Below are positions 6,714 to 40,450 of a stretch of DNA of 40,450 nucleotides, piece after piece (position 1 is the first letter of the stretch; every line of letters begins with the position of its first letter). Below the pieces are notes generated by a model, which had not been told where the DNA came from, ran no database searches, and was given only the letters and a program-made list of their open reading frames with translations. Where the stretch lies: contig JAGXIV010000018.1 of NCBI GenBank assembly GCA_024635485.1, positions 1 through 40,450 on the forward strand. Reading direction: 5' to 3'. The DNA is from a bacterium (GTDB lineage: Bacteria; Patescibacteriota; Gracilibacteria; BD1-5; UBA6164). Position numbers and translations under genes: made by a program.

Positions 6714-8240
6714 ATGACTATAGTGAAGAAATATTGGTTTGAAATGAAAATACAAGCTTTTACACTCGTAGAACTCATAGTAGTAATCACAATTCTTGCA
6801 ATACTTTGAACAATTGGATTTATTTCACTACAGTGATATTCACTTTCAGCACGTGATTCTCGAAGAATCTCTGATATTTCAACAGTAGAAAAGTCATTAT
6901 GAATATATAATACGACTCAATCTACACTTCCATCTCCAGATCGTGCTATTCTTATTACTGGTTCTTGAAATGCATTATGATATCAATGATTTTTATGAAC
7001 GGGAGTACTCAATGAACTAAAAATGTGAGGTGAAATATTAGATCCATTATATCTTACTCCTTTTATATATAGTACTGATGTATGAAAATCAAGATATCAA
7101 ATTATGGCTTATATGGAAAAATCTCAGCTTTTAGTAGATACAGTTCCTGAAACTTATGCACTAGTTTGAGACTATACGAATTCATTTCCCAAATTTTTTT
7201 GAGAGAGATTTTTTGTACTCTTAGAACCTACTAGTCAAAAATGAATTCATGAAATATTAACTGCGTGAGATACTTTAGATCTAAACGCTAATAATAATGC
7301 CTATTCTATATATCTTACAAATTCAGATTCTTTTACTTGATCTTGATATTCACTCTATTGATATGCTGCAACTATATTAGGAGAGTATGCTCCAAATGAT
7401 TGCCCAAGTTGATTTATTTGAGTGCCATGAAATATAGAGTTTCATCCTGAATGATTTTGTGTGGCTCAATATGAGATGACTTACAGTGACGCGAATGTAG
7501 CAAATAGTGTAGATGGATGAACTGATTTTAATAGTGTTTCATACATCCCTGGAAAAAAAATTGTTTCTCAAGCATGAACTTTTCCAATCTGAGATATTAC
7601 TCAATGAGAAGCAATTGAAGCTTGTAAAACTATAGGAAATGGATTTCATCTTATTACTGAAAATGAATGGATGACTATAGCTCGAAGTATAGAAGCAAAC
7701 AAAGAAAACTGGACTTGAAATGAAATAGGGAATTGATTTATCCCAAATTGAGTTTCAAATAATACAGATATTTGATGTTATGCTACAGCGTCTGAAAGTT
7801 ATGACAGAGTGTTTGCTACTAAAACATGAAAATGAGTCAATGAAACATGTAATTCTCGTAGATCTCATACACTTCAAAACGAAAATATAATATGGGATTT
7901 TGCTTGAAATTTGTGGGAAAACGTGAATAAGGCGAACACAATTGACGGAGTTGGATATAATATTTGAAACTCAACTCTTTCTTCAAGTGATAACGCTACA
8001 TGGTGGGATTTAGATGGAGTTTATGCAAGATCAGAAATGAATCAGTCAGCTTCTTTTACAAATCATGGTTTATGAGAGTGAGTGTGAAGTGTTTATAATT
8101 CACAATGATATGCTCCTAATAATGTATTTTTACGATGAGGAAGTGCTCCAAATGATAGATTTCCTTGAATATATACTCTGAATCTAAGATGGAGAGATAT
8201 TGATTCAGAAGGCTCAGTTGGTTTTAGATGTGCTCGATAA
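6714..8240 (+). CDS. Type IV prepilin-like protein B with FGE-sulfatase/C-type-lectin-fold head
   Basis: 508 residues from this ATG. An ATG 30 bases later (6744) gives MKIQAFTLVE and fits a normal short prepilin leader better. Prepilin helix FTLVELIVVITILAIL; cleavage would follow Ala. The middle (TVEKSLGIYNTTQ, LPSPDR) parallels the other pilins only loosely. From about residue 240 the head resembles formylglycine-generating-enzyme/SUMF1 domains: EFHPEGFCVAQYEMTY, ACKTIGNGFHLITENEW, IWDFAGNLWEN, FLRGGSA and GFRCAR. That fold is used in phage and bacterial receptor-binding proteins. No sign that the head is a formylglycine enzyme. Very rich in TGA glycines. Confidence 0.85.
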
Positions 8241-9964: not shown

Positions 9965-11059
9965 ATGAAAGAAAAAATAGAAATACTTAAAAATCTCTAT
10001 ACAGATTATGAAGCTTGCGCTCATAAATTTTGACTGAAATATTGCGAAGATTCGAGTGATTGGATACTAAGAAAAAGAGCAGGAAAATGATTTTATTATA
10101 TTGATTATAAAGAAAATAAAGTAGAAAATTCTAAAACTCTTGAGTATATAAAGAGTTTAGTTATTCCACCTAAGTGGCAAGATACTCTTATTAGTCCAGA
10201 ATCAAAAAATCATTTGCTTGCTATAGGTTTTGATCAAAAAGGGAGAAAACAATACTTGTATAATGAAGACTGGTCCCATGCAAGAAATCTTATAAATTCT
10301 TATAAGATGATACTATTTTGAAATACTCTTAGAGATATTCGAAAACAAGTTCGTAATGATATCAAAACAAAAAATATGAGCTTTAATTTTGTTATGGCAA
10401 CTCTTCTCACGGTATTAGATGAGACAGTTATTAGAATAGGGGATTCATATTATTATGAGCAGAATGAAACTGTGTGACTTACTACTTTACATCAAAAGAA
10501 CATACACATTAAAAATAATTATGCTCTATTGCATTTTCAGTGAAAATCTTGAAAAAATCATAAGATTAAAATCAAAAAAAATAAAATAGTACAGGCTCTT
10601 AGTTTACTCAAAAAACAAAAACAAAAAAATATTTTCTCTTATAAGCAATCATGAGATTGGCATACTCTTGATGCTAGCAAAGTAAATTGTTATATCCACG
10701 AACATGGTTCTGACCTCATTTCTGCGAAAGACTATAGAACCTGGCATGCGACTCGTATTGTCTTTAAAAAATTGATAATCGAAACACAAAAAAAAGATTT
10801 TAAGAATCTGAGTGATACAAAACGAAATAAGATACTTTTGGAATGTTTTGATGCTGCAGCTGAAAAACTATGAAATACAAGAACGGTTGTTCGTAATAGT
10901 TATGTACACTGAGATATGGCTGATACTTTTCGAGATAATAAATTTTTAGATTTTTTCCACTCTATTCAATCAACTCGTAAAATGAAATATCTCTCAAAAA
11001 CTGAATCTCAACTTTTAGCTTTTCTAGAATTTTTATTTCGCGAAAATTTTTCGCTTTAA
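9965..11059 (+). CDS. DNA topoisomerase IB (poxvirus-type)
   Basis: 364 residues, typical of bacterial homologues of the poxvirus enzyme, which relax supercoils through a 3'-phosphotyrosine nick. N-terminal ILRKRAGKGFYYID and LVIPPKWQD are classic. Catalytic landmarks: RIGDSYYYEQNETVGLTT (active-site Arg), FQGKSGKNHKIK (Lys loop), KDYRTWHAT (second Arg) and RNSYVHGDM, where Tyr313 is the nucleophile. The usual VRKSYVHP motif ends in G here instead of P, and that Gly is TGA. The 3' end overlaps the convergent mutarotase by 4 bases. It is patchily distributed in bacteria, so transfer is possible, but codon use and TGA match the neighbours. Confidence 0.92.
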
Positions 11060-14117: not shown

Positions 14118-14783
14118 TTAAATGTGAATATTATTCAGCCAATCGTTGAGTGGTTTCAGCGCTTTGATTCTTTTTTCATATTCTTTATATCCTTCTTCTG
14201 ATTCTACCTCTATATCTGAAAGATAACTTCTGACAGAAAATGTTTTATGATTCAGTAAATCGATATATTTGTGATCTTTTGGATATCATCGTGGAGAAGT
14301 TTTGAGTTTGTTTCTTTGGTTTAATTCTCAAAAATAATTCTTAAACTTTTTTTCGTTTAAGATTTCATCGAGTTCGTGTCAGTGAGTCGCTATTTTTTCT
14401 CGAATTTTTTCTAAATATTTAGGGCTTGGAGCATAGTTTCCTCCACCCATAAAATTATTAAAGGGTTCTATATGCAGATAATAACAAGCTCTAAATTCTT
14501 TATTAGCTTTTCCTCCAGGGCAAACATATCCACTCATATGAGTTTTATATGGGAGCTTACTTTTCGAAAATCTCACATCACGATTTATTCGAAACATATG
14601 TCTTTCAGCTTCTGCATTGTCTATATTTGTATCAATTTTTTCAGCAAGTTTTGTAAAAATATCTAACTCATCCACAAAATTTTTTCTCGCAATTTCATAA
14701 TCCTTTTTATGAGTATGAAACCACATTCGGTCATTGTGTTCTCGCAGATTTTTAAGAAAGGTAAAAGTATATCCTTGAATCAT
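14118..14783 (-). CDS. DUF2461 family protein (TIGR02453)
   Basis: 221 residues, the usual size. Signatures: FLKNLREHNDRMWFHTHKKDYE near the N-terminus (two halves, FLKNLREHNDR and MWFHTHKKDYE), FRINRDVRFSKSKLPYKTH in the centre, then CYYLHIEPFNNFMGGGNYAPSP and a C-terminal GELNQRNKLKTSPRGYPKDH. This soluble family is widespread and conserved, with no established biochemical role. Most glycines in the second half (THGHE, PRGYP) are encoded by TGA. It has a strong inverted repeat just upstream and no close partner gene. Confidence 0.9.
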
Positions 14784-14790
14784 ATAACAA

Positions 14791-14828
14791 AAAAATAATA
14801 GTATATTTGTAAATATACTATTATTTTT
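14791..14828. terminator. Perfect 18-bp inverted repeat, terminator of the HEPN cassette
   Basis: AAAAATAATAGTATATTT and its exact complement around a GT centre, between the HEPN gene stop (14853) and the DUF2461 start (14783). As RNA it forms an 18-bp hairpin. It also contains TATACT, and a 14-base string shared with the operator-like repeat upstream of the cassette. Confidence 0.65.
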
Positions 14829-14852
14829 GGGTATGAGAAGTGTAAAATTTGG

Positions 14853-15614
14853 TTATTGAAAATTAATGATGACATTTTTTACTAAGTCTTGAATGAATGA
14901 AATAGCTTTATAATCATCAATAGAAACTGAATTAGGGTGGGCACAAGTATTTCTAATTCATAGTTTTTCATCTAAAATTTTTCGTGTATCATTTGTAATA
15001 AATTTTCATACTTTGAGAATTTCTATAAAATCTGATTCTTTTCATATTGATTGAAAATCATCTTTTTTTGTTATTCTAATTTTTTTATATTTTCAATGAT
15101 TTTGAATTGATGTATTAAAAACAATAAGATTCTCATCTAATAATATGTACTCATAAATAATATCAATAGTTAACAACCATGTTAGAATAATAGCTCATCT
15201 ATTCGCTTTATATTCAAAACAGCTTATTGCTTCCTCTAAAAAATCTATTTGTTCTTTTCATTTTATTTTTAGTAGAAGATCTCTTAATACGATTGATGTT
15301 TCTTTAATATGTTTGTCTCATAATATTTCTTGATCAAACTTTTTTCTTAATTCTCTAGAAAATTTATATTCTCAAAGTAATATAGATTTTTGAATTCCAA
15401 TTTTAGAATCAAGTATATTTTTGAAGTCTCTAGATAAATTTCATGGTGGTTCTAAATCTAATTTATTAAATAAATTTAAAACTTCTTTTTGAGAGAAAAT
15501 ATTTTCTCATTTTTCAGATATCACCAAAAATGAAATGATTAAAATTTTTTCACTATTTGTTTTTCATTCAAATCAGGCTATATTATCAAAAATTGATTCT
15601 AATGTATTAATCAT
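14853..15614 (-). CDS. HEPN-like protein with N-terminal winged-helix-like region
   Basis: 253 residues. The N-terminal 70 (EKILIISFLVISEKGENIF, QKEVLNLFNKLDL, PPGNLSRDFKNIL) resemble the winged-helix segment of the two genes upstream. The C-terminal half is helical: CFEYKANRGAIILTWLLTI, then IRNTCAHPNSVS. The R-N-T-C-A-H is the R-x4-H signature of HEPN ribonucleases, preceded by a typical 'Y-x-A...AAIxLxW' helix. HEPN proteins are toxins or effectors in abortive-infection, toxin-antitoxin and CRISPR-linked systems. Last gene of a three-gene operon; its ATG overlaps the upstream stop by 8 bases (15607-15614). RNase activity is inference. Confidence 0.7.
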
Positions 15615-16158
15615 TATTTGTAGGTAAATTTTGTGATGCAAAGATTTCTCCGGCTCTTGTTAATTCCCAGCCTGATTCTATTCATTCGACTTGAGTGATT
15701 AAATCTCTTTGAGATTTAGTGTTTAACATTATTTGTCTTAAGTGAAGTGGTCTCTTAATATTCAAAATTTTATATGCAAATTCTACATTTCATTCAGTAA
15801 AGTGATTTTTTTCGAGAATATCTTGAATATAATATCAAATTGTGACAATAATATCCTGATTATTTTTTCAAGGCTTTTTTCTTTCGTAAAAATCTTTTAA
15901 GGTTTCTTTTCAAGACTCTCACATATAGTCAAATCTTTCTGGTTTTATAGATTTAGTTTTAGTATTTTTCCCTTTTTTATCTATTGTATTATTTTTTTCC
16001 AAAGTTCTGGACTCATTTTTACTAATTTCGTTTTTTCATTTAAAGCTTCATAACAATAGTTTACTTTCATAAAGCTCTAATTTTTCTCTGACAAAATCCT
16101 CGTTTCATTCTATTTCAATTATTCAAAGATTTATATCAATTTTTACTCTAGTATTCAT
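15607..16158 (-). CDS. Winged-helix-like protein with 'ETLKDFYERKKP' motif
   Basis: 183 residues. N-terminal beta-like segment (VKIDINLGIIEIEGNEDFV), then a Lys/Asn/Thr-rich linker, then an extended winged-helix module: GKETLKDFYERKKPGKN, VTIGYYIQDILEKNHFTEGN (helix and strand), PLHLRQIMLN (recognition-helix-like), ending GWELTRAGEIFASQNLP. I recall similar 'TLKxFYxxKKPxxxxEKI' modules beside HEPN proteins in archaea and bacteria, but assign no name. It is followed by the HEPN gene (8-base overlap) and preceded by a gene with a related C-terminus (1 base gap). It may bind DNA or act as sensor or antitoxin. Confidence 0.65.
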
Positions 16159-16159
16159 T

Positions 16160-16642
16160 TTATTTTTTTTGGTTAAAAATTATATTATTTGCTAACTCGC
16201 TTCATTTTTTAGTAAGTATAAAATCTGTCTCATTAACACCTTTTATGTATCATTTTTTTATCGATGAATTGAAATTTTGACTAAAGTTTTTTATTCTCTG
16301 TTTAGTTTTCCTTCATGAACTATCATATATTTTAAATATATCCTCTTTAGTAAAAGTTTTATTTCAAAAATCTCATACATAATATCAATATACTAAAATC
16401 CATTCTGGTTCGTTTTTCACATAATCTAAAATTATCAAATCTTTAATTTGAGGGAATTTATTATTTGATTCAATTAGTTCTGTTTTGTTATCAACATTTC
16501 AAATACTAATAGAATCTATTTGTGTTTCATCCTCAAATTGAAATTTTTGATTAAGGTAAAATAGAATCCTTGACCTAGCTTTAGCATCTTCGATACTTTC
16601 TATTAAATTAATGCATTCTTCAATAATTTTTAATTCTTTCAT
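16160..16642 (-). CDS. Winged-helix-like protein, first gene of the HEPN cassette
   Basis: 160 residues. A helical start (ELKIIEECINLIESIEDAKARS) precedes a module resembling the neighbour's: KFPQIKDLIILDYV, WILVYGYYVGDFGNKTFTKE, KTKQRIKNFSQNFNS, ending FILTKKGSELANN. The strand-turn 'GYY..D...K..FT' and the terminal 'LTxxG' occur in both, so the two are probably diverged paralogues. The chosen ATG at 16642 removes a doubtful 19-residue extension. An inverted repeat lies 13-40 bases upstream and could be its operator. Possible regulator or antitoxin. TGA supplies most glycines, so the cassette has adapted to the code. Confidence 0.6.
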
Positions 16643-16654
16643 AATATAAAATTT

Positions 16655-16681
16655 AACATATATTATTTGTAAATATATGTT
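16655..16681. promoter_or_regulatory. Operator-like inverted repeat upstream of the HEPN cassette
   Basis: Arms AACATATATT / AATATATGTT (10 bp) with a 7-base centre, 13 bases before the cassette's first ATG. It contains TATTTGTAAATATA (16664-16677), which also occurs at 14804-14817 beyond the last gene. Confidence 0.45.
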
Positions 16682-16884
16682 TAGTTTTTGTTTTGTCAAA
16701 ATTATTTTTACATAAAAACAGAATTAATTAAACAATAAAGACTTTTTACTTTATTTTTAATTCGTAATTTTCCCTATTTAACAGTATTAAGTAAATAAAA
16801 AAAGATTAATGCCTTTATTGTGATTTAAATTTAATTATTCATTATTAAAATAATTATATAAAATAAAATCAAAACTCACCTCTC
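16682..16884. other. AT-rich gene-free stretch
   Basis: About 200 bases between the HEPN cassette start and the mutY stop. Very AT-rich, with stop codons in the frames examined and no ORF of note. A weak imperfect repeat (AATAAAGACTTTTTACTTTATT, bases about 16734-16756, quoted as AATAAAG / CTTTATT) could act as a hairpin. It must hold the cassette promoter; no RNA gene seen. Confidence 0.5.
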
Positions 16885-17994
16885 TTAAAATTTTAAATAG
16901 TCTCATTTATTCAAACGCTCTTTCTCTCACTTCTCGCCAAACTCTAGATTCTCTACATATCATTCTTCAAAACCTCTGACTTTGAGATTTTCAAAGGTGT
17001 AAAAATCGTGGGTTCAGGATTGTATTTGTGCGTAACAGACGAAGTAGGGAATTTCGTGCTGATTGTAGGACTTGATTTCTGGAGGTCGAACGGAGAGCTC
17101 GAGTCCGTATTTTTCTCAGAAATACTGCTGAATCATAGCTCTGGGATCAGAGGTATTTTTTCCTATGAGAAATGGTGAGAATTCAGAATCTTTGCTAAAA
17201 TATATTTTGTGATTTTCGTGTAGGATTGCTATAACGTAGGCTTGTTTGCTTGGAAAAGTAGACTTCTTTTTTTCTTTTATGGGCTCAAGTTCTCAGCGAG
17301 TTTGATAAAATTTTGACTCTGGAAATGGGTATGTTTCCCAATTGATTCCAGAAATATTATTGAGGGAAATCGTTGCTCCATAATCCATCAGCGCATTATT
17401 GATATCTCGAGAAATTGAAGCTTCTTTCTCTTTTCAAGAGAGAGAATTCAAGAGAGAGTTATAATATTCTTGCATCTGCCGTAATAATTCTTCTTTTTCT
17501 TCTTTGCTGAGTTTTTGAAATTTGTTTCCAAAGAAATAACGAGAGAATATCTTTTCTAAGTTTGTATCAAAGGAAAGCGTTGGAATATCGTATGCAAAGG
17601 CTCTAATAGCTTCGGCTGTATATGGACCAACTCATGGAAGTGTCCTGAGAAGCTCGGTTTCTTTTGGAAATATTCAGTCAAAATCTGATACGACTTTCTG
17701 TGCAGCTTTGAGCATATTCCGAGCTCGTGAATAATATCAGAGTCATTTATAATAAGGGAAGAAATCCTCATAACTCGCAGCTGCGAGATCTTCGACGCTA
17801 GGAAAAGCACTCAAGATATTTTCAAAGTATGACTTTACTCGCTCTACCTGTGTTTGTTGGAGCATCGTTTCAGCAAGCCACACTCTGTATCCAAGCTCTT
17901 TTTTAGTAAAATCATAATCTCGCCAAGGAAGCGTATTTCGTCAGTTTTTTTGATACCAAGTGTGTAACTCAGAAAATGGGAATTTTGAAATCAT
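16885..17994 (-). CDS. mutY: A/G-specific adenine glycosylase MutY, cluster-less form
   Basis: 369 residues. It removes adenine mispaired with 8-oxoguanine. [15 protein letters not shown] holds catalytic Glu42; the helix-hairpin-helix [12 protein letters not shown] (about 119-130) is followed by LSFDTN with Asp143. Both first-domain motifs are intact, and the first Gly of PGVG is TGA. After NNALMDYGA, where most MutY proteins carry C-x6-C-x2-C-x5-C, the sequence runs [16 protein letters not shown] with no cysteine, so the [4Fe-4S] cluster is lost. The C-terminal NUDIX-like domain (about 225-369) probably reads 8-oxoG. It uses fewer TGA codons than its neighbours. Divergent from DUF2177. Confidence 0.9.
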
Positions 17995-18004
17995 ATTCTT
18001 ACAA

Positions 18005-18032
18005 TTGTAATACATCTGTAAGCTAGTATACT
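18005..18032 (+). promoter_or_regulatory. Promoter of the DUF2177 operon
   Basis: TTGTAA (18005-18010), 16-base spacer, TATACT (18027-18032), 31 bases before the ATG at 18064. The best -35/-10 pair noticed in the window, placed in the mutY/DUF2177 divergent gap. Confidence 0.55.
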
Positions 18033-23028: not shown

Positions 23029-23039
23029 ATATTGGATGA

Positions 23040-23045
23040 TATAAT
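23040..23045 (+). promoter_or_regulatory. -10 box of pilin C
   Basis: TATAAT, 37 bases before the TTG start codon. It lies just after the upstream terminator. Confidence 0.4.
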
Positions 23046-23082
23046 TACACTAATAAGTAATATCTCTCTTAGAATTACACTT

Positions 23083-24447
23083 TTGAAAAAAATACTTCCA
23101 GCTTTCACTCTTGTAGAACTTATCGTAGTTATAACAATTATTGGTATCTTATCTACAGTATGATTTGTAAGTTATTCTAATTATCTGACGTGAGCCAGAG
23201 ACTCAAATAGATATTCCCAGATGACGAAACTCTCTGATTCACTTCAAGTGTATGCAACCACTAAATCCCTTCCACTTCCAGACGACTACATAGAGATAAC
23301 AGCGAGTTGAGCGAGCAATGTTATTGCGTACCAGTGATACGTATGAACAGACGTCCTAGAAACGATAGACTATACAAACGGAGGAAGAGATCCCAAAGAT
23401 GACTCTTTTTATACGTACTATCTCACAAAAGACAGAAAATCACTTCAATTGATGGCCCTCATGGAAGAATCAGGAAAGGTGGCTCAAAATAATTCAACTC
23501 AATTACTCACTCATACAACATTTGCTGCAGATTATTCGAGTAGATTTCCAAAAGTTTATGGAAAGAAACTGTGAGTTTTCGTTTCAAATAATTCAAACAC
23601 TTTTAATGCTCCCATTCAAGAAATTGCGAGTATTTGAAGTGCCTGAGTATTAGATATTAAAAATACTCAAGAAAATATCAGAGCTGTATTTTGAGAAGGT
23701 TTGGAAATAAGTTGAACAGGTTCTAGTTTAGTATTTTTAGGATCACTGTTAGATAAAGATTTATCGTATTTAGATTCAAGTCTTATTTGATACTGGGATT
23801 TTGAAACTTTAGAAAACGGAAAACTCAAAGATTTTAGTTTTCAAAATAATTATGCAAATTGTTATAAAAAAACTACATTAAATACATGAAGCCTAGTAGA
23901 CTGTAATATTACTAAATGAGGATACAAAACATTTAATTGAATTGATGAATACATGGAATTGGATTTTGCTTTTCCATATTATTGAAATACTTGATTCTCT
24001 TCTTTTGTGAAATGAGTTTTATACGATAAATCTCTTAGCAATAATTTTGATACTTTTTTTTGAAACTATCGTTGAACATTTTGTTGAAATACTTGAAATT
24101 TTTGATTAGCAGTAAAAGCTAATTCTGAAAAAATTTCATACAGAGACTATTCGGTTGGATCTGGTGATCCATTTTTATTAGATTATAAAACTGAAAAATT
24201 ATACAAAATAGCATCTATTTTTAAAACATGAATAAGTAAAAAGATATATATTAATTGAGATGATATATCAACGATAAACGTTAGTACAAGTAATCCTGAA
24301 AATTGATTATGTAAGTTTAGATTCTGAAATGATTATGGAGCTATGTGAGCAGAAAGTTTCTTAAGATGAGAAATAAATACCATCAGATTTTATAATAGAG
24401 CTTTAACTGAAAGTGAAGTACAACTATTAAATTTATTTTCTGACTAA
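23083..24447 (+). CDS. Type IV prepilin-like protein C with LamG-like head
   Basis: 454 residues from a TTG start. No ATG precedes the prepilin helix, and TTG gives the leader MKKILPA ahead of FTLVELIVVITIIGIL. Residues 30-150 repeat pilin A closely (QVYATTKSLPLPDDYIEI, DVLETIDYTNGGRDPKDD). From about residue 235 comes a concanavalin/LamG-type domain: SLIGYWDFETLENGKLKDFS, YKTFNGIDEYMELDF, SKKIYINGDD and the closing GEINTIRFYNRALTESEV. This fold binds sugars or proteins. It differs from the fibrinogen-like heads of A and D and the FGE head of B. Many TGA codons, some aligned with GGA in pilin A. Confidence 0.87.
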
Positions 24448-28539: not shown

Positions 28540-29610
28540 ATGCTCATTCACCAAAAACTTCGGGCTTTTACGCTTGTAGAACTTATAGTTGTTATTACTA
28601 TTATTGGAATACTTTCAACCGTATGATTTGTATCATATTCTAATTATTTATCATGAGCGAGAGATTCAAATAGAGTTTCTCAAATGATTAAACTTAATGA
28701 TTCTATCCAGGTTTATTCTGCTAATAAGACACTCCCTCTTCCGGATGATTATATAGAAATAACTGCGAGTGGTGCTAGTAATGTTATAGGGTACCAGTGA
28801 TATCTTGGTGTGGATGTTTTAGAAACTATTGATTATACGAATGGTGGAAAAGACCCTAAAGATCAGAGCTATTATACCTACTATGTTTCAAAAGATAGAT
28901 CAGCATTTCAACTACTTGCTTTACTTGAAGAATCTACAGGTTTAGCATCAAACATACAATTAGGATCATCAGTAAACGCGATAAGTTATGATGAAAGATT
29001 TATTAAAGTATATTGAAAAAAATTAGGGATATTAACATCAACTGCTGCAAGTACTCTCAATACTCCGGTACAAGAAATTACTGGAACAACCAGTGTTGAT
29101 ATTGTAACCACTACCAATACTTATATTGCTCACTTATCTGATGATGATAAGCTTGAATGAACAGGAGCAGTTCTCAGAGCAGCCCTTCCTAATGCAAGTT
29201 GTAAGAGAATTAAACAAGTTGGAAAAGGAACTACAAGCTGAATTTATGCTATTAATCCAACAGGTAGTACGAGTATAAATGCTTACTGTGATATGGATAT
29301 TGCTGGTGGAGGATGGACACTTGTTGCAAGAAGTGTTACAGGAGGAACGTGATGATTTGTTCTTACAACGAGTACAGGATCAGTTACAAACTTAAGTGCA
29401 CCCTATATACTAGCTCCTAGCAACTTGAAATATTCTTCTCAATTATTTACTGCCTACTCATGAAATTATGATATTAGTAAATCGAAAGAAACAGCAACTA
29501 CTTCTGCGAGTTTAGTGCAATCTCCTCATACTCTCAGTGTTTCTCTTATTACTGGTTGAGTTGTGTCTGATGGCTATAATGGGAAGACTGGAATGTTATT
29601 TGTAAAATAA
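28540..29610 (+). CDS. Type IV prepilin-like protein D with fibrinogen-like head
   Basis: 356 residues. Leader MLIHQKLRA then FTLVELIVVITIIGIL; cut after Ala. Residues 35-150 match pilins A and C (LPLPDDYIEITASGAS, DVLETIDYTNGGKDPKD). The head from about residue 219 is akin to that of pilin A: NASCKRIKQVGKG, NAYCDMDIAGGGWTLVARS. It is about 70 residues shorter than A and lacks A's later cysteines. In the shared part this copy often uses GGT or GGA where A and C use TGA. The convergent PilB ATPase lies just downstream, the best functional link in the window between these pilins and a motor. Confidence 0.87.
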
Positions 29611-38305: not shown

Positions 38306-40450
38306 TTGAAAAAAATATTTTGAATCCTCATATTCTGGCTTCTTACTTTGAGTACTACTTTTTGATCGAGTGCTTTAGTTGAAGATATATTTTCTGACAT
38401 TTCCTCTGATTATATATATAGAGATGAACTTCAAACTCTCTATGATAGAGGAATGATTATTCCTGATGCTTCTGCTCGTTTTAATCCTGAAGCATTTTTG
38501 AATCGTGATGAATTTGTGTGAATTTCAATGGAGGTTATATGTGAGAGATGTATCGCTCCTCATACTGATTATGCCCTTATCGAAGAGTTTGCCAATACTG
38601 AGGTATATTTTGATATCAATCCCACTAATCCATATTTTTATTGTGTTGCTGAAGCAGATAAACAAAACTATGTACGGGGGTATGATATTTCCCAAAGCTG
38701 TGAAAATGGAACAACTCGTTTTTGAGAGCGACCATTTTGTCCCACAAACAGAATAAATTTAGAGGAAGCAGTTGCAGTACTTCTTCGTAATTCGGGTATT
38801 TTTACTATAGATGATAATCAAGCAGTGATATCTGGAATACTCTCTGGAACCATTACTCAAACACTTTGAAATGATGTCACTCCTACTGATGGAAATGGAA
38901 ATCCATATACCTTTTATGGATATATAAAAAAAGCACTTAATTATGAAATCACAGAATATGATACTGCATGAAATGAAAAAATCCTTAAACTTCTAGAAAC
39001 AGATTCTACTGGAGCTATAAATCCTAAACAATCTATCACTAAAGAGCAGTTTTTGAGAATGTCTTATATCGCTCTCAAATCTAATAGTTGTAATGAGCTT
39101 TCAAATGAAGAACTTGCTCTGAAAATGAATATTTTTGAAAAATCATGTCAGCCGTGACAAGTGAATTGTACACTTTCAGATTTAAATGATCCTGTTGATA
39201 CTTATGATTTTGATGCTGATGCACAATGAATATGTGAACTATGAATAGAAGAACCAAGTGGATATGTATGGAGATTTATACATGTTGATACTGGTCAAGA
39301 GCTGTTTCGTTATTGAAAATTTATTGATAACTTTGAACTTAATTTAGCATGAGAATGGAAGGTCATGCTTAGAGTTGTAGATAGATGTTGACAGAGTAGT
39401 GAAGTTTATTCTACTATTATTGTTGATACTTGAGATCTTTCACCTCAACAAATAGATGTGAGTATTGATGTATATGATGATAGTTGTGCTTCGATTACAG
39501 CAAATTGTCCTACTATTGATTTCACGAGTGGGGAAACTGATGGAGACAATACTTTTGATTTTGGATGAAATGTAGATACGACCTGTAATGTCTGAACAGT
39601 TCAATATAACTGGACCTATACTCACGCAGCGAGTAATACGATACGAAAATCTAGTTGAATATTTCAAGATAATAAAGTATTTGATATTGATGGACTCTGG
39701 AATATCAAACTTGATGTTCGAGACTGATGTGGAAATACTGGAAGTGAGCAAATGACATATACTGTCTATCCTGAGACTCAAGAAACCTTTATTGATCTAG
39801 ATATAGATATTTTTGATGATGCTTGTACGTGAGTAAATGCTAATTGTACAGAAATATTTTTTTCGAGTGAAGAAAGCGATGGAGATAATACCTTTGATTT
39901 TGCCTGAGATGTAGATACGAGTTGCCAGGTTTGAAGTGTGAGCTATAATTGGAAATTTCAGAGATCTGGATCAAGTGAAATACTCACTCGACAGTGAATG
40001 TATGTAGATAATTTTTCATTTTTAGATGCGTGAGTATGGAATATACAACTAGATGTTCGAGATTGATGTGGGCAAACTGCCAGCGAACAGTTAAGCTATA
40101 TTGTTCCAGAAATACAACAAATAGATGTGAGTATTGATGTATTTGATGATATTTGTACTTCGATTACAGCAAATTGTCCTACTATTGATTTCACGAGCGG
40201 AGAGACAGATTGAGACAATACTTTTGATTTTGGATGAAATATAGATACGACCTGTAAGATTTGAACAGTTCAATATAACTGGACCTATACTCACGCAGCG
40301 AGTAATACGACACGAAAATCTAGTTGAATATTTCAAGATAATAAAGTATTTGATATTGATGGACTCTGGAACATCAGACTTGATGTTCGAGACTGATGTG
40401 GAAATACTGGAAGTGAGCAAATGACATATACTGTCTATCCTGAGACTCAA
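38306..40450 (+). CDS. SLH-type surface protein with tandem beta-sandwich repeats (3' end beyond window)
   Basis: 715 residues to the window edge. TTG start gives LKKIFGILIFWLLTLSTTFG, a signal peptide. An S-layer-homology-like domain follows: VEDIFSDIS, YRDELQTLYDRGMIIPDAS and FNPEAFLNRDEF, then a second SLH-like stretch with cysteines. From about residue 380 come PKD/Ig-like repeats of about 110 residues, each starting with an IDVxIDxxDD core and ending LDVRDGCG, with two conserved Cys. Units lie at 39452, 39794 and 40121. Units 1 and 3 are nearly identical at DNA level; unit 2 is divergent. Units 1 and 3 show a GGA/TGA swap at one codon. Probably the cell's surface layer or adhesin. Confidence 0.85.
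39452..40450 (+). repeat. Coding tandem repeats of the SLH-type protein
   Basis: Three units: 39452-39793, 39794-40120 and 40121-40450 (cut by window). Units 1 and 3 are offset by exactly 669 bases (223 codons) and differ at only scattered positions. Unit 2 shares the pattern (SDGDNTFDF, LDVRDGCG) but is much diverged. An A-B-A-type pattern suggests a two-unit duplication that extends beyond the window. Confidence 0.9.

Follow-up and report, generated by a model that had tools for sequence, protein, structure and literature searches.

What is the function of three nearly fused genes, g1, g2 and g3, that lie together in a 40,450-nucleotide stretch of a Gracilibacteria genome (contig JAGXIV010000018.1, the whole of which we call the window)? 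The answer we favor, which we hold to be somewhat more probable than its negation, is that they form a self-repressing winged helix-turn-helix–HEPN ribonuclease (RNase) immune module that acts by abortive infection. In this reading the cassette is one copy of a mobile and widespread module, in which gene A, encoding a small winged-helix protein and represented here by two separate genes (g1 and g2), is joined by the gene of the winged-helix/HEPN protein (g3). In the 1.14-Mb source genome TGA encodes glycine (code 25), and g1–g3 are open only under this code, in whose coordinates the features that had led the original prediction to describe the genes as nearly fused, a 1-base gap between g1 and g2 (16159) and an 8-base overlap of g2 and g3 (15607-15614), are both borne out. 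The genes and the predicted active site are as follows:

16160-16642, minus strand: g1, 160 residues; N-terminal helical segment (MKELKIIEECINLIESIEDAKARSRILFYL) and a predicted winged-helix domain at about residues 63-150
15607-16158, minus strand: g2 ("gene A"), 183 residues; short N-terminal beta-beta-helix tag (KIDINLGIIEIEGNEDFV), a low-complexity linker, then a predicted winged-helix domain at about residues 84-180
14853-15614, minus strand: g3, 253 residues; predicted N-terminal winged helix (residues 12-99) and C-terminal HEPN domain (residues 116-253)
14937-14954, minus strand: R221-N-T-C-A-H226 of g3 (RNTCAH, R-x4-H), the predicted RNase active-site motif

Winged-helix and HEPN domains of the three proteins

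Sequence profiles and predicted structures together indicate that a homologous winged-helix domain is present in all three proteins, in keeping with the original proposal of a module common to g1 and g2 with a similar N-terminus in g3. The strings of the shared module are present (GYYVGDFGNKTFT in g1 and GYYIQDILEKNHFT in g2). Before iteration, a gene A profile that was built without g1 and without any HEPN protein gave E-values of 1.5e-6 for g1, 1e-8 to 1e-4 for the N-terminal regions in several of the HEPN homologues, and no better than 0.018 for g3 itself. After iteration, the profile matched g1 at 9e-16, g2 at 3e-44 and g3 at 2e-14, E-values inflated by the inclusion of these matches in the profile, and the ~330 other open reading frames of the loci scored nothing. 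By BLASTP, g1 matched the first half of upstream proteins with two fused winged helices at related loci (L031, 37% identity, 3e-20; L034, 44%, 3e-22), and g2 matched a protein of L044 (34%, 2e-35) and the second half of the L031 fusion (39%, 8e-27). In the predicted structures, three helices and a beta wing are found in g3 residues 12-99, which match winged-helix structures with Z scores of up to 7.9, and in the L031 domain homologous to g1 (up to 10.6); the g2-like half of the L031 model has the same helix-strand order at a predicted local distance difference test (pLDDT) score >90. In structure comparisons these domains resemble MarR/PadR-type regulators. Rows for kite-type proteins (MukEF, Wadjet JetB-like) were rejected, as their VIA-align scores were not above those of other winged helices.

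We confidently assign the C-terminal half of g3, as modeled by AlphaFold2 (mean pLDDT 90 for the protein), to the HEPN fold. The ten best VIA-align rows for g3 cover this region and are nearly all HEPN structures, with Z scores over residues 116-253 of 10.4 for 2hsb, 9.1 for both Roquin and 2q00, 8.9 for AbiA, 8.4-8.5 for HepT and 8.1 for Csm6. For bundles of helices, scores of 8-10 count as moderate, so we base the assignment jointly on the fold and the motif; the structural match rests on VIA-align, since a Foldseek search of the PDB with g3 returned no E below 0.17; the viral fold library gave no match at E<=0.001. The HEPN motif is R-x4-6-H, with a polar residue after the arginine, at the end of helix 3 (PMC3710099). 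Both this motif and the alpha-helical bundle of the superfamily are found in g3, where R-x4-H is placed at the point where the last long helix but one (208-225) ends, and R221, N222, H226, P227, E193, R139 and W146 are invariant in 26/26 aligned homologues. The HEPN-like domain with R-x4-H that was originally proposed has thus withstood structure prediction, the bundle being present and the motif placed as in known HEPN domains. From motif and model we infer that g3 is an RNase.

Conserved gene order and horizontal acquisition

Relatives were found stepwise, in 380 Patescibacteria genomes and then with a five-sequence HEPN alignment against a species-level genome collection and viral contigs. 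A few full-length HEPN relatives were present among the 380 genomes and one further relative lies on an Ochrobactrum plasmid, and the five-sequence alignment identified 27 loci in the genome collection (three of them Patescibacteria loci already found) and two in viral contigs, so that the HEPN homologue loci extend over Pseudomonadota, Bacteroidota, Planctomycetota, Chloroflexota and Patescibacteria. Single-sequence scans of the genome and viral collections found none, although four- and five-sequence HEPN alignments did find relatives; no relative turned up in phage records at the limits used, and the gene A query had no match to viral collections in the completed scan.

With the Ochrobactrum plasmid the loci number 30, of which L047 and L057 are truncated at a contig edge and uninformative. 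In 27 of the 28 informative loci, the gene immediately upstream of the HEPN gene encodes a winged-helix protein, with gaps of mostly -14 to +11 bases. The gene order on which the original prediction depended is therefore conserved, across several phyla and at distances typical of translational coupling. The 27 include a fragment (L039), a short gene 119 bases off (L040), a small, divergent one (L033) and one judged by eye from its translation (L056). In the exception, L048, the HEPN domain stands behind another N-terminus, resembling the candidate defence protein PDC-S35 (2e-7), beside a PDC-M28C-like gene. Two winged helices occur in a single upstream gene in L031, L034, L045 and L054, and because the fusion halves that were compared (both of L031, the first resembling g1 and the second g2, and the g1 half of L034) are homologous to g1 and g2, the two window genes resemble a single component that has been split. 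Zinc ribbons have been added in the fused proteins of L034 and L045, and the small genes are expanded in Saccharibacteria, with four upstream genes in L035 that match the winged-helix profile. Mean identity is 22-24% in the winged-helix parts vs. 47% in the HEPN domain; distances in the two are correlated (Mantel r 0.6, p 0.0002), as expected of genes travelling together.

Related winged-helix proteins also have other neighbors. In L073, one is paired with a pPIWI/Ago-associated nuclease (3e-12 and 5e-8). At this locus (L073:1318-2702) a LexA-like gene is divergent from the winged-helix protein, which carries an N-terminal LDDGQRQRVMKYVLERFG motif like the N-terminus of g1 and is followed by the pPIWI-associated nuclease (PF18165, 3e-12). 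In L028:9-1767 and L029:317-1935, Saccharibacteria-type winged-helix proteins lie beside a 258-259-residue protein with R-x3-6-H (FRSQRGAVHV or FRNARGDMHE), possibly another HEPN effector.

The cassette was acquired horizontally, as follows from its patchy presence, an empty site in a congener, and its odd GC content and TGA use. Among 147 related genomes g3 is found in the source genome only and is absent from the 146 others. By blastn, homology to the congener G005 ends at 14847 and resumes at 16929, with the DUF2461 and MutY genes adjacent there, and the missing stretch holds the whole cassette:

14848-16928, no strand assigned: stretch missing from G005, an inserted or replaced segment

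The GC content of the cassette is 21.5-25.7%, against 30.3% for the window, and its glycines are encoded as TGA in 29/33 codons, compared to 133/278 in eleven other window genes (p = 1e-5). In the tree, g3 groups with four Bacteroidota sequences (98/98), separate from other Patescibacteria (98/94), on a long branch whose exact sister is left open. We infer that the cassette came from another organism or element with TGA-glycine, after an earlier transfer out of Bacteroidota-like bacteria.

Repeats, promoter-like site, and other features of the window

The original prediction had the cassette bracketed by inverted repeats that share a 14-base core. Exact copies of the core (TATTTGTAAATATA) lie at 14804-14817 and 16664-16677, and the genome has no other. 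The bracketing was not upheld: the 3' hairpin is conserved in the empty site of G005 and is for that reason a host-locus feature outside the cassette, and the surroundings of the cassette show no evident gene for a transposase or integrase, leading us to reject the repeats as ends of a mobile element. The features concerned are:

14791-14828, no strand assigned: hairpin, perfect 18-bp AT, terminator-like, between g3 and the DUF2461 gene
16655-16681, minus strand: palindrome AACATATATT-TACAAAT-AATATATGTT, 10-base arms, 12 bases ahead of the g1 start; candidate operator
16672-16699, minus strand: promoter-like site TTGACA-16-TATATT before g1, the best of the region (11/12 consensus match)

The -10 hexamer of the promoter-like site lies inside the palindrome, which, judged by consensus match, looks like an operator for self-repression. 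The 14-mer is common to the host hairpin in the flank and to this operator-like palindrome of the acquired cassette.

On either side of the cassette are a MutY-like gene (16885-18015, HhH-GPD) and the DUF2461 gene (14118-14783, 2e-63); a 62-residue fragment, 72% identical to the DUF2461 protein, is encoded elsewhere in the genome (G000:C1:9257-9439). There are no Rfam or tRNA targets in the window. Four pilin-like proteins (359-1636, 6714-8240, 23032-24447 and 28540-29610) are almost identical at their N-termini (FTLVELIVVITIIGILSTVGFVSYSNYL in three of them) and differ in the C-terminal parts, and, judging from the sequences, look like a set of shuffled adhesive tips. By sequence reading, three photolyase/cryptochrome-like genes are encoded within 12 kb of this very small genome (1915-3252, 8285-9829 and 12140-13612), adjoined by a gene resembling that of topoisomerase IB (9965-11059). 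The window's right end carries near-identical repeats (39344-39781 and 40091-40450), probably parts of a repeat protein that the contig edge truncates.

Known systems, rival explanations, and significance

The fold and chemistry of the cassette are already known; it is the combination of a winged-helix-HEPN protein with small winged-helix partners that is unnamed in the libraries and literature searched, consistent with the original statement that no named system with such an order was known in Patescibacteria. As our PADLOC version dates from 2023 and subscription literature was thinly covered, a name may exist elsewhere. One of the nearest named systems, PD-T7-3, is a validated single-gene anti-phage system of E. 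coli (PMC9519451) that is listed with a HEPN domain (PMC10952713). Its PADLOC model (PDLC04108) matches HEPN homologues at 6e-8 to 3e-3 (L031, 6e-8; L007, 1e-5; L026, 1.3e-5; L044, 3e-5) and does not match the g3 of the window. The match covers model positions 4-121 of 432, so that the N-terminal region of the model aligns with the HEPN domain of the g3 homologues; PD-T7-3 is one protein of ~430 positions with an N-terminal HEPN domain, whereas here the domain is C-terminal, behind a winged helix, in a multi-gene unit with separate winged-helix partners. Similarly, a profile of the 26 homologues matches residues 12-98 of the 460-residue "Dandelion" HEPN protein (PDB 9wx2, 9wxf; 1e-4), which differs from g3 in overall architecture and for which a literature search found no paper. 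By these alignments, the HEPN domain is remotely related to those of PD-T7-3 and "Dandelion." The phage family phrog_27609 (function unknown) matches g3 at 6e-6 and the HEPN region of homologues at 1e-11 to 9e-5, but this family spans 418 positions and has its HEPN domain N-terminally. In the EC042_2821 family, HEPN is linked with winged-helix, zinc-ribbon and nuclease domains in restriction-modification operons (PMC3710099); the combination of HEPN and winged helix is alike, but here there is no such operon, and no DUF3644 or restriction endonuclease domain was matched among the 26 members at E<=0.1.

As an immune module, the cassette would work as follows. On nucleic acid, the winged-helix subunits would form a joint assembly; they would repress their own promoter via the palindrome over the -10 box and hold the HEPN part idle. 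A phage-associated change, which may be the presence of foreign nucleic acid (DNA or RNA) or the disappearance of the repressor, would free the HEPN domains, and these, probably as dimers, would cut RNA, such that the infected cell is arrested or killed.

Several observations weigh against this reading. The genes flanking the cassettes across loci are mostly housekeeping genes, with few defence genes, which makes the association with defence islands negative to weak. Pfam, NCBIfam and PADLOC searches of g1, g2 and g3 gave no significant match (weak matches, to PAXIP1_C, DUF5962 and others, were set aside as chance). Relaxed constraint, instead of an arms race, could account for how fast the winged-helix parts have diverged. 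There is also an orphan gene A without a HEPN gene (L074:3427-3939; G205:C1 near 502588), which directly precedes genes for a DnaG-like primase and an RpoD-like sigma factor.

The rival that survives best, although we consider it rather unlikely, is a type II-like toxin-antitoxin system in which g1 and g2 bind and neutralise a HEPN toxin and autoregulate the operon, chiefly for self or plasmid maintenance, with phage defence incidental. The antitoxin-first order, the overlaps and the palindrome over the promoter are all as one would expect of it, the Ochrobactrum plasmid copy lies a few genes from a VapBC pair, and the cassettes stand isolated amid housekeeping genes. There is also the precedent of HEPN-MNT pairs, which are known toxin-antitoxin systems (PMC7641770); HepT-MntA has the same HEPN RNase fold in a two-gene unit, but its partner is a nucleotidyltransferase rather than a winged-helix protein, and the family searches of g1-g3 found no MNT domain. 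In addition, the putative toxin itself contains a winged helix with homology to the antitoxin, and the zinc-ribbon fusions and the several small winged-helix genes of Saccharibacteria would be unusual for an antitoxin. The two readings overlap in mechanism, and set against the weak island association, the kinship to PD-T7-3 and "Dandelion," the divergence and the other nuclease partners lead us to favor the immune module.

It is quite improbable that the winged-helix proteins direct the HEPN RNase in normal control of transcription or RNA turnover: their MarR/PadR-type likeness and the weak island context are compatible with such a role, but a very patchy presence, horizontal transfer and the empty site in the congener speak against a house function. 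Less probable still is a DNA-targeting or structural complex with HEPN as a dimerisation scaffold and no RNase, since none of the motif residues R, N, H and P varies among the 26 sequences, which one would not expect of a dead domain, even though catalytically dead HEPN domains exist and tandem winged helices resemble, in weak VIA-align rows, the kite-type proteins of MukBEF and Wadjet.

More tentatively, the immune module may belong to an unnamed, phylum-spanning class in which small, fast-diverging sensor subunits of the winged-helix type, of which each locus has one to four that are recognisable and some have zinc ribbons, would be plugged into interchangeable nuclease effectors. Its effectors would include HEPN proteins of the PD-T7-3/"Dandelion" type, the Abi-like HEPN candidates of L028 and L029, and the pPIWI-associated nuclease of L073.

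In bacterial immunity, killing is commonly carried out by HEPN RNases, and the sensor of infection is often not known. The conserved winged-helix partner, at times in several copies or fused, is a concrete candidate for the sensor or antitoxin of such an RNase, and homologues in culturable bacteria (Sphingobacterium, Pontibacter, Methylobacillus, Marinobacter and Rhizobium) make this candidate testable. For the organism itself, the cassette means that streamlined, recoded genomes of the Gracilibacteria type take up modules of this kind, apparently via a gene pool with a shared genetic code.
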